A stretch of DNA of 64,000 nucleotides from positions 1,674,001-1,738,000 of the forward strand of contig NZ_AP019841.1 of the NCBI RefSeq assembly GCF_007990445.1, written 5' to 3'. Source of the stretch: Leptotrichia wadei (GTDB taxonomy: Bacteria > Fusobacteriota > Fusobacteriia > Fusobacteriales > Leptotrichiaceae). Made by a program: the position numbers and the translations under genes. The notes beneath the pieces were generated by a model. That model was not told the origin of the DNA and did not search any database. It saw only the letters and a program-made list of their open reading frames with translations. Shown piece by piece: positions 25,597 to 35,468 of this stretch (the stretch's first letter is position 1; each line of letters opens with the position of its first letter).

Positions 25597-26931
25597 TTAT
25601 TTTGGAGCTTCATCCAAGTTTTGTGCATACGGTAAATCATATTTCCCCATAACTTCTTTTTTTAAATTAAAGTTTTGTGCAAAAAATATTGCAAACATTC
25701 CCAAATCATGGTTTCGTCTTAGCTGCATAAATCCTCTTTTAAGTATTGAACGCCATCCAAAAAAGCTTTTTCTTGCATTGGCACATTTTTTGGAAAGCTC
25801 ATCGGGAGTCTGATCACTTGGAAGAAAGGAAATTCGCCCATAAGGATAATTTTCATCCAGCCACCATTTTTCACTAAGAAGTCGTTTTTCTTCTCTTAAT
25901 TTTCTATAAATGCCTGTTTTTGGGAATGGTACAAGATGGTTAAATGCCGCAAAATAAAATCCATGTTTTTTGGCAAATTTTACCGTTTCATCAAAAGTTT
26001 CCTTAGTGTCATTTCCATAACCGAATACAAAAGTAGCATAAATTCCGATTCCATAACTATGAATTTTTTCTGTCAGTTCATTTATTTCTCCAACGCCACT
26101 TCTCCAGCCTTTCCCCATATCCTTTAAAATATTTGGGTTCATTGACTCATACCCAATCAAAATCATTTTGCATCCGCTTTTTTTCATCCAGTAAAGCAAT
26201 TCATCATTTTTCGCAATGGTAATAGCCCCTTGCGTTACCCATTTTATATTTAACGGCTCAATTGCCTTGCAAATCTCAATCGCATGTTTATGATCCGCCA
26301 CAAAATTATCATCAATAAAAAAAACATACTTCTTCCCAGAATTTTTTATATCCTGCACAATTTCCTCAATAGGCCGCCTAAAATACTTTTTCTCATAATA
26401 GGAATGAATCGCACAGAAATCACATGCAAAATTGCACCCACGCCCTGTTTCAATCAGTGCAAGCGGTGAATATTTCCTATCCTTGTAAATACTCCTGTCA
26501 GGCATTGCAAAAGACGTAGTTACCCCATAATACCGTTTTTCCAGCTTATTCTTGCTCAAATCGTTCAACATCTTTGTCCACACGCTTTCCGCATTTCCCA
26601 AAATAATCGAATCAAAATGTTCCAGACACTCGTCAGGCTCTACAGTTGGATGATATCCCCCTGCAAGTACCTTTATCCCCCTTTTCTGAAACTTTTCTGC
26701 TATTTCATAAGCCCTTTTGGCAGTATAAGTTTCCACGGAAATTACAACTAAATCTGTATTTTCCTCATAATTTATAAATTCATTCCTGTCATCCATAAAA
26801 TTCGTTTCAACATCCTCAGGAGTTAAAGATTTTAAAACTGCAATCATAAGCGGTTCCATATTTTTCCATGTTTTTATATATTTCTGCCCTTTTTTCTTCC
26901 CAATGGCTGGCAGTATAAATGTTATTTTCAC
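25597..26931 (-). CDS. B12-binding radical SAM protein, WWLDEN subtype
   Basis: The 444-residue protein has an N-terminal cobalamin-binding Rossmann domain (about 1-130, with VVISVETYTAKRAYEIA and LAGGYHPTVEPDE). A radical SAM domain follows, with Cys166, Cys170 and Cys173 in GRGCNFACDFC. The His ligand motif DxHxxG of base-off B12 domains is not visible. The C-terminal part contains VPFPKTGIYRKL and WWLDENYPYG. The family includes hopanoid methylases, BchE-like cyclases and enzymes that join lipid tails. It is the last gene of the cluster, 25 bases after the preceding one. It is a close paralogue of the protein at 33289 (both open with GKKKGQKYI). The substrate is unknown. Confidence 0.85.
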   Translation of the reverse strand: MKITFILPAIGKKKGQKYIKTWKNMEPLMIAVLKSLTPEDVETNFMDDRNEFINYEENTDLVVISVETYTAKRAYEIAEKFQKRGIKVLAGGYHPTVEPDECLEHFDSIILGNAESVWTKMLNDLSKNKLEKRYYGVTTSFAMPDRSIYKDRKYSPLALIETGRGCNFACDFCAIHSYYEKKYFRRPIEEIVQDIKNSGKKYVFFIDDNFVADHKHAIEICKAIEPLNIKWVTQGAITIAKNDELLYWMKKSGCKMILIGYESMNPNILKDMGKGWRSGVGEINELTEKIHSYGIGIYATFVFGYGNDTKETFDETVKFAKKHGFYFAAFNHLVPFPKTGIYRKLREEKRLLSEKWWLDENYPYGRISFLPSDQTPDELSKKCANARKSFFGWRSILKRGFMQLRRNHDLGMFAIFFAQNFNLKKEVMGKYDLPYAQNLDEAPK

Positions 26932-26956
26932 TGTTTTTCTCCTTTTTTCTCAACTT

Positions 26957-28279
26957 CTATTTATCAAATTTAATCTTCCCATACTTCCTAAATTTCCGTG
27001 CATGCTGCCTAGAAAACACCTCCAAAATAAATTTCAACCCTTTATTCCTAGAAGTTTTCACTCTTCTTAAAATTCGCTTGAAAGTGAAAGTGTCAAGCCA
27101 CAATTTATAGAATTCCTTTTGCAATGTTTCATAACTCATATTTTTAGGCTTGAATACGACTGTTTCGGTGTCGTAGTAATACCAGTCTTCTGTAAGCAAT
27201 CTGCCTTCTTCTTTTAACTGATTAAAAAAAGGTGTTCCTGGATACGGAGTAATTATGTTATATCTTGGCACATCTACCCCAATTTCCTCAATAATATCAG
27301 GAATTTGGCGAATTGACTCCACTGTGTCAGTTTCCATTCCTATCATAAGTGTAGAAAGGACTGATATTCCATAAGACTGGATCGTTTTTACAAGTTTTTT
27401 GTATTCTGCGACATTGTTAAATTTTTTATTTACTCCATCAAGATTTTCCTGAACAAAACTTTCCAAGCCAATAACCAAACCTATACAGCCAGACTTTTTC
27501 ATTAACTGAAGAATTTTTTTATCATTACCGATATTTATTGTTGCAGAAGCAGTCCATTTTATTTTTAACTTCTTCAATTCTTCCATTAGCTGAATAGCGT
27601 AATTTCTATTGCCTAAAAAGTTTGGATCAAGAAATATCCATTTTTTTGGCTTATTCGTTTTTATTTCATTTATCACGTACTCTATGCTTTTTATCTGATT
27701 TTTTCCAGAATACATCTTTGTGATGGAGCAGTAGGAGCATTTATTGGGACAGCCATTGTTTGCGACGATTGTGCCGTAATTTTTAAAATATTTTTTATTT
27801 TTCAAAAGTTTTCGGTTTAATGGCTTCGGTTCATAATCATTTCCAACGAGGTTAAAATATTCTCTTTTTGGAGTTCCATTTGTAAAATCTTCAAGAAACA
27901 TCGGAAATGAAATTTCAGCAGCTCCCGTAATTACCGTATCAAAATATTGTAACGCCTCTTCCTTCAAAGCAGTCGCATAATGCCCGCCAATTAATGTATG
28001 CGCTCCTTTACTTTTCCAAAACCTGGCAATCTCTTTTGCCCTTTTCGATCCTGAAATTACCGAAGAAATACAAATTACATCAAATTTTTCATTTTCATAT
28101 TTTTTAGAAGTAGCATCCCATTTTTCCACACCTTCATCCACAATAACAACATCAGCGTTATACTTTCTGTCAATTAGTGATTCCAGCGTTATTAACGTGA
28201 TTTGCGGATAATATTTTCTTTTGTGAATCGAGTTGTATTTGTAGATGTTATCCTTTGCTAAAACAAGCATTATTCTCAT
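26957..28279 (-). CDS. B12-binding radical SAM protein, YDxxxVFxPK subtype
   Basis: The 440-residue protein has a cobalamin-binding N-terminal domain (ISSVISGSKRAKEIARFW, then LIGGHYATALKEEAL). The radical SAM cluster is Cys177, Cys181 and Cys184, in NNGCPNKCSYC. The C-terminal part contains TPYPGTPFFNQL and DWYYYDTETVVFKPKNMS, the pattern shared with the paralogue at 30064. Its ATG overlaps the stop of the previous gene by four bases (ATGA), so the two are translationally coupled. Class B radical SAM enzymes methylate or rearrange unactivated carbons. The substrate cannot be read from sequence. Confidence 0.85.
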   Translation of the reverse strand: MRIMLVLAKDNIYKYNSIHKRKYYPQITLITLESLIDRKYNADVVIVDEGVEKWDATSKKYENEKFDVICISSVISGSKRAKEIARFWKSKGAHTLIGGHYATALKEEALQYFDTVITGAAEISFPMFLEDFTNGTPKREYFNLVGNDYEPKPLNRKLLKNKKYFKNYGTIVANNGCPNKCSYCSITKMYSGKNQIKSIEYVINEIKTNKPKKWIFLDPNFLGNRNYAIQLMEELKKLKIKWTASATINIGNDKKILQLMKKSGCIGLVIGLESFVQENLDGVNKKFNNVAEYKKLVKTIQSYGISVLSTLMIGMETDTVESIRQIPDIIEEIGVDVPRYNIITPYPGTPFFNQLKEEGRLLTEDWYYYDTETVVFKPKNMSYETLQKEFYKLWLDTFTFKRILRRVKTSRNKGLKFILEVFSRQHARKFRKYGKIKFDK

Positions 28280-34617: not shown

Positions 34618-34733
34618 AAAATTCACCTTTTTTTATTTATTTAACTTCCAATATTTTAACATGCAAATCATTGAATTTTATTTTTTTTTAAAGTAAATTT
34701 TACTTTTTAAATCAAACTATTTAGTTTTAAAAA

Positions 34734-35468
34734 TTAAAAGATTTCCTTCAAAACCCGTTTTCCCAAATTTGTCAAATTTTCAAAAGAAATTTCTGCAAGG
34801 CATACCAGTTCATCACCTTTCTGATAGCTAGGATTTTTCTCTAAAAAAAACTGCACATTTTTATTTTTTAACTGCTTTTCCGAAAGTACAACGACATTTT
34901 CCCGTAAAAAATCATTTGTTCCATCATTTTTTACAATTCCATTTTCCTTATTATATCTATTTCCGTATATTTTTTCAGCATAAATATCTTTTATTTTTTT
35001 CTCCATCTCATTTTCAGTATAATCCGCCTTAGGAGAAAATTTTTTAAAATATGTTGGAAGATACATATATGTCTTTATCCCTTTAGAAATCAGAAACCAG
35101 TAAGTTTTTAGCCCATTTTTCATATTTTTTTCACTTTCCAGAAGGCAATATTTTATCCATTCTTTCTGAAATTCGATTCCCCAAGAAAATCCCTTTTCGA
35201 TAATTGTATCCCCAGAAAAAAAACCGACTATTTTTCCATTAACAGTATCTTTTTCATTCTCAATATTTAACTCCATTTTTTTTATTGTAGAAAACCCCTT
35301 TAATTCATCATTTTCAAATAACAAAAAAACATTATTTTTATCATACAAATCTTTTAAAAATTTATCTTTTTTCATATTTTCATAATGATTTTTCATAAGT
35401 AAAAACATACTTTCCACAATTTTTTCATCATCTTTTATATCCAATACAGAAAAAATTTTACATTTCAT
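34734..35468 (-). CDS. GNAT-like uncharacterised protein at the head of the radical SAM cluster
   Basis: The 244-residue protein is unrecognised. A GNAT-like opening is visible: VFLLFENDELKGFSTIKKMEL, then a GKIVGFFSGDTIIEKGF strand-turn. A helical GIEFQKEWIKYCLLESEKN block follows, and a Tyr-rich TYMYLPTYFKKFSP. No acetyl-CoA loop is clear. It is the first gene of the minus-strand run, about 115 bases before the first radical SAM gene, and is probably co-transcribed. A possible role is acyl transfer in the same pathway, inferred from neighbours alone. Confidence 0.5.
   Translation of the reverse strand: MKCKIFSVLDIKDDEKIVESMFLLMKNHYENMKKDKFLKDLYDKNNVFLLFENDELKGFSTIKKMELNIENEKDTVNGKIVGFFSGDTIIEKGFSWGIEFQKEWIKYCLLESEKNMKNGLKTYWFLISKGIKTYMYLPTYFKKFSPKADYTENEMEKKIKDIYAEKIYGNRYNKENGIVKNDGTNDFLRENVVVLSEKQLKNKNVQFFLEKNPSYQKGDELVCLAEISFENLTNLGKRVLKEIF

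Follow-up and report, generated by a model that had tools for sequence, protein, structure and literature searches.

The window, the 64,000-nucleotide stretch of Leptotrichia wadei DNA analysed here, contains seven adjacent minus-strand genes that encode five B12/radical SAM paralogues, a GH3 enzyme and a GNAT-like protein, a gene content first read from the sequence and confirmed by the open reading frames and Pfam matches. In coordinate order, these are a clade E B12-radical SAM protein of the WWLDEN type (25597..26931; PF04055, PF02310, tree position and 745 bits against the clade E HMM), a clade B protein of the YDxxxVFKPK type (26957..28279; PF04055 and tree position), a clade C protein (28276..29580; Pfam, tree position and ribosome site), a clade A protein of the MYDVxHxVFxPK type (30064..31383; Pfam, A2 alignment and tree position), a 641-aa GH3-type acyl-acid amido synthetase (31380..33305), a B12-radical SAM sister of clade E (33289..34626; tree position and 530 bits against the clade E HMM), and the GNAT-fold protein GNAT2, or N2 (34734..35468). 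The sequence-only reading had reported junction overlaps of 4, 17 and 4 bases, which are correct; one 4-base overlap joins the 28276 gene to the 26957 gene. Its count of five paralogues holds as well, but the 33289 protein carries WWLEPQ in place of WWLDEN. The genes had also been described as a single run; all share one strand, but a gap of ~480 bases without a convincing open reading frame separates the 28276 and 30064 genes. For the first of these, ATG 29580, preceded by an AAGGAG site, is the most likely start codon, rather than the alternative TTG 29598. Within the intervening stretch (29600-30063), whose length varies among species, a GC-richer segment lies near 29850-29950. Elsewhere in the window, positions 52078-62703 form one open reading frame of 3541 aa.

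All five 440-aa proteins score far above the Radical_SAM cut-off (PF04055) in a Pfam scan, and four pass the cut-off for the B12-binding domain PF02310. The 26957 protein scored 30.2 against the PF02310 cut-off of 32.1 in the protein scan and 32.2, above the cut-off, in the genome search. That search recovered six PF02310 proteins from the host genome, five of them in the block; the sixth, an 1180-aa frame, is probably methionine synthase, judged by its length. Because five of the six PF02310 proteins of the genome sit here and conservation of the set extends across phyla, their clustering is not due to chance. The other four paralogues are 29-45% identical to the 25597 protein, and a quick tree of radical SAM proteins resolved five deep clades, each spanning phyla, and a small sixth. 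The window's set comprises A, B, C, E and the second E-like protein 33289; by HMM reading, clade D is absent from the block in the window's genus. Of 339 near-full-length radical SAM copies, 338 retain the CxxxCxxC motif. Comparison between species of the window's genus gave dN/dS values of 0.02-0.06 for the five radical SAM genes, which implies that all five proteins have been kept functional, and of 0.22-0.25 for GH3 and 0.11-0.22 for N2; the block genes are under purifying selection. Synonymous divergence of the radical SAM genes (0.16-0.35) falls within the range of flanking genes. In one genome (G012), the clade-B gene is interrupted around codon 391 by an IS605/TnpB-type element (L026 1890-3146; L122 8810-10757), and a relative of this IS605-family transposase occupies positions 8129-9058 of the window.

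None of the five radical SAM proteins reaches an NCBIfam equivalog cut-off. The best or near-best NCBIfam scores belong to HpnJ, HpnR and TIGR04072, which have the same B12-binding plus radical SAM architecture, but the highest values obtained were 115.7 of 577.6, 64.9 of 650 and 82.7 of 360, respectively; unlike those enzymes, the radical SAM proteins of the block are found with GH3 and GNAT genes. The clade-A profile weakly matches the radical SAM core of AprD4 and TsrM, enzymes that act on small-molecule substrates in antibiotic pathways and occur without GH3. Among solved structures, the 25597 protein is closest in sequence to the B12-dependent radical SAM enzyme MgmA (9ccb), a methyl-coenzyme M reductase (MCR) glutamine C-methyltransferase, although the match is weak and partial (E 1e-7) and MgmA acts on protein in methanogens. 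Because the 25597 protein matched 9ccb and no other PDB sequence at E 0.001, we considered whether the block modifies protein or RNA instead of a small molecule, as the MCR glutamine methylase MgmA would suggest. We regard this as very improbable: no conserved precursor or target gene was seen in the block among open reading frames of at least 70 aa, and neither a GH3 enzyme nor the permease found in other loci (below) makes much sense in such a role. B12-radical SAM enzymes additionally carry out ring contraction, hydroxylation and P-methylation, and given such varied chemistry, assigning methylation to these proteins is a guess.

The N-terminal, middle and C-terminal GH3 domains (PF03321, PF23571 and PF23572) all score above cut-off in the 641-aa protein, whose solved relatives are plant GH3 enzymes. 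Its nucleotide-binding motifs TSGSTSDVK, STEC and GLYRYNTND lie at the expected places, by comparison with the motifs in PMC12493201, and are conserved in 37 sequences. OlsH, a characterised bacterial GH3 enzyme, uses ATP to join a fatty acid and ornithine into N-acyl-ornithine, and its authors suggest that further N-acyl amino acids are the products of other GH3 enzymes in bacteria (PMC12493201). The protein in the window is of the same bacterial type as that of the OlsH/OlsI ornithine-lipid pathway in Singulisphaera (PMC12493201) and shares the three nucleotide-binding motifs, and ATP-dependent amide formation is expected of it. The two differ in sequence and in partners, however: the equivalog model NF052613 for OlsH, a lyso-ornithine lipid synthetase, gives 55.9 bits against a cut-off of 620, and OlsH pairs with the alpha/beta-hydrolase OlsI, whereas the present GH3 is found with radical SAM and GNAT genes. 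AlphaFold2 models of GNAT2 and of a second, tandem GNAT-fold protein, GNAT1 (or N1; 22247..23191, minus strand), were confident (pLDDT 92.4 and 90.7, respectively). In Foldseek searches, GNAT2 weakly matched acetyltransferases, and GNAT1 matched tandem GNATs and N-myristoyltransferases. Neither reaches a specific NCBIfam family and the CoA-binding loop of these GNAT-fold proteins seems atypical on visual inspection, so that "acyltransferase" is here a description drawn from fold. The component families are all known; no account of their combination was found in the open-access literature that was searched, in keeping with the initial view of the set as undescribed.

GNAT1 is overlapped by the gene for an MBL-fold hydrolase (23172..23978, minus strand), and a divergent LpxL-type (PF03279) acyltransferase is encoded on the plus strand between this pair and the radical SAM genes (24514..25377; ATG 24514 with an AGGAG site). 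GNAT1, the MBL-fold gene and the LpxL-type gene are present in the seven genomes of the window's genus that carry the cluster and in one further genome, G016. There, the sequence matching the window ends at the end of the LpxL-type gene (L121 4550-7491): GNAT1 and the MBL-fold gene are kept, the LpxL-type gene is broken, and the radical SAM and GH3 genes are missing. All 13 genomes of the genus have another, higher-scoring PF03279 gene, which identifies the LpxL-type gene of the cluster as a second, dedicated copy, and this copy has been gained and lost together with the block. Within the window's genus, therefore, the block extends to GNAT1, the MBL-fold gene and the second LpxL-type gene; for the MBL-fold gene the link is confined to this genus, no such protein having been seen as part of the block in the loci listed from other phyla. 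These flanking partners had been proposed from the window, together with a condensation-like gene (37740-39188); the former are cluster-linked, but the latter was rejected as a partner, being found in 13 of 13 genomes of the genus and, in the remaining genomes that carry the cluster, located apart from it. In 5 of 13 species the condensation-like gene matches as two separate stretches, possibly reflecting low-complexity inserts or, in G011, breakage.

The GH3 protein occurs in 7 of 13 genomes of the window's genus, in no other genus of the family by genome search, and in 10 of 98 Fusobacteriota genomes in a search of the phylum. The clade-A gene (30064 type, >860 bits) is present in exactly those ten (Fisher p ~7e-14, with kinship between genomes ignored), and radical SAM genes lie beside GH3 in all nine GH3-bearing Fusobacteriota genomes other than that of the window. 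In two genomes of a sister family (G058 and G059) the genes form a tight eight-gene run (GNAT1, E, A, GH3, GNAT2, D, C, B), and a further genome (G050) has the order GNAT2, GH3, A, B, E, GNAT1. Scattering of the genes in relatives, the outcome that would have spoken against a single system, was thus not what the gene-neighbourhood comparison found. In the tree, the E and A proteins of G058 and G059 cluster with Mucispirillum, and those of the window's genus cluster with Bacillota sequences and one Fusobacterium bin. These different groupings suggest that the two Fusobacteriota versions of the block have distinct histories, a pattern that fits horizontal transfer. Two species of the window's genus carry an additional 442-aa gene between the clade-B and clade-E genes (L025 16408-17736 and L027 4396-5724); the L025 copy encodes a TPR-repeat protein.

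Beyond the phylum, a clade-A alignment scan with one genome per species yielded 139 confirmed stretches. Eighty are listed and were read with HMMs in all six frames; all hold clade A by selection. These loci carry the whole block or part of it; most are from Clostridia, and a few come from records labelled Deferribacterota, Synergistota, WOR-3, Calditrichota, Acidobacteriota, Actinomycetota and Peregrinibacteria. Metagenome bins account for many of the records, making phyla seen in single records less certain, and some contigs end inside the block, so that gene absences in those loci mean little. The commonest order is B, C and D radical SAM genes, GNAT2, GH3, A and E radical SAM genes, and tandem GNAT1, found exactly in 29 of the 80 listed loci and without B in another 11; short overlaps between adjoining genes recur across loci, and most intergenic spaces are small. 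Together with the linkage in ten Fusobacteriota genomes, this pattern upholds the proposal of a single system whose genes are kept together in relatives as well as in other phyla. Clade A is its most conserved member, and A and E constitute a core that is nearly always accompanied by GNAT1 (68 of 80 listed loci), which adjoins the E-type gene in most; C and D, found together in 50 of 51 loci, and B are optional. Either GNAT2 and GH3 or a permease precedes A: GH3 is present in 60 of the 80 listed loci, a PF03222 (Trp_Tyr_perm) permease with a low score against the aromatic model in 13, both in none and neither in seven, and GNAT2 (54 loci) always occurs with GH3. Five GH3-less genomes have no GH3 gene anywhere, and the WOR-3 and Acidobacteriota genomes encode GH3 outside the retrieved clade-A locus. 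GH3 chemistry, which had been proposed as part of the pathway, can be retained as a core or alternative step. The permease could also have no functional tie to the block and be a neighbour of convenience within a single group of lineages.

A RiPP system would call for a precursor peptide gene, but the blocks contain no conserved additional open reading frame of at least 70 aa, shorter frames having been listed only in the gap before the 30064 gene. No riboswitch or T-box that might have pointed to the substrate was detected at the block head at the gathering threshold in the window and 21 loci; in L091 a T-box lies >4 kb upstream. Cobalt-transport-like genes that follow the Sedimentibacter block were rejected as a specific link, since their sizes and order resemble a common ECF module. 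In the order of Ruminococcus flavefaciens, 2 of 147 sampled genomes carry clade A, indicating that the block is rare and patchy.

Patchy horizontal spread, modular tailoring and the prevalence of GNAT1 would all suit an antimetabolite or antibiotic pathway, in which a toxic compound resembling an amino acid is produced by the radical SAM enzymes and masked by a GNAT, and the permease or conjugation handles export. In permease-type operons of Butyrivibrio, the GNAT gene overlaps at its end with a gene for an ABC-F-like ATPase (L110 17743-19317; L112 10427-11467), a further point in favour. This link is limited to two near-identical records, however, and we rejected the ABC-F gene as self-protection; across the 80 listed loci no exporter or resistance gene is conserved, and long-term conservation of gene order fits a physiological role equally well. 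We therefore judge such a product unlikely.

Tailoring of membrane lipids deserves more weight, if still on the doubtful side. Here, the radical SAM enzymes would act on fatty acyl chains, introducing mid-chain methyls or rings or joining tails, and GH3, the GNATs and the LpxL-type enzyme would build an unusual amino lipid of the envelope. The dedicated LpxL-type gene of the window's genus, the identity of the closest curated bacterial GH3 model as a lipid enzyme (OlsH; PMC12493201), and the presence of HpnJ and a ladderane-associated family among the top NCBIfam scores all point this way. Those scores are nonetheless far under the equivalog cut-offs, no relative of the LpxL-type acyltransferase was seen in the other-phyla loci listed, a permease version without GH3 exists, and no other neighbour is conserved beside the block across the 80 listed loci. 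The suggestion of a fatty or lipid product made from the window is supported for its genus, where the LpxL-type copy tracks the block, but not for the system in general, with 13 permease loci and no hopanoid or ladderane cut-off reached.

The gene set is tightly conserved and appears to pass between unrelated anaerobes, and its product is most likely a small molecule or lipid that contains an amide. To the reading of the block as a biosynthetic operon that has spread horizontally and makes a small metabolite with an amide group, amide formation being its general theme, we give about an even chance. The observations cover which genes are present and linked, how modules are swapped, the intactness of the catalytic motifs and purifying selection; around them we infer every chemical step and the product. 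In the probable order, the A and E enzymes, always or almost always present, act first and may C-methylate unactivated carbons or join them in new C-C bonds, and the optional C plus D and B enzymes would make further changes. In all, two to five B12-radical enzymes would modify C-H bonds of the product. With ATP, GH3 would then adenylate a carboxylate and couple it to an amine, in all likelihood that of an amino acid. The GNAT-fold proteins, judging from their modelled structures, may transfer acyl or aminoacyl groups. Where GH3 is missing, the amino-acid-type permease would instead carry a precursor or product across the membrane. The product is probably amino-acid-linked, as favoured by the N-acyl-ornithine chemistry of OlsH and by a Trp/Tyr-family permease in the place of GH3. 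In the window's genus, the dedicated LpxL-type enzyme would add a fatty acyl chain, which favours an acylated and probably lipid-like local end product.

With up to five different B12-radical SAM enzymes and a GH3 enzyme in an order kept across several phyla, the block suggests that common anaerobes carry out difficult carbon chemistry in a single multistep pathway. Loci in which a permease takes the place of GH3 and GNAT2, together with the optional modules C/D and B, amount to natural experiments for assigning steps, and the pathway can now be tested in carriers that are in culture (Ruminococcus flavefaciens 007c, Peptoclostridium litorale, Alkaliphilus serpentinus, Butyrivibrio and Sedimentibacter saalensis). 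For the host genome, it would represent a use of B12 beyond one other PF02310 protein. More broadly, belief and doubt are evenly balanced on whether this is an undescribed, widely transferred anaerobe pathway in which up to five different B12-radical SAM enzymes act serially on one GH3-amide-linked substrate, giving a new class of amino lipids or small molecules in gut, rumen and perhaps oral bacteria.
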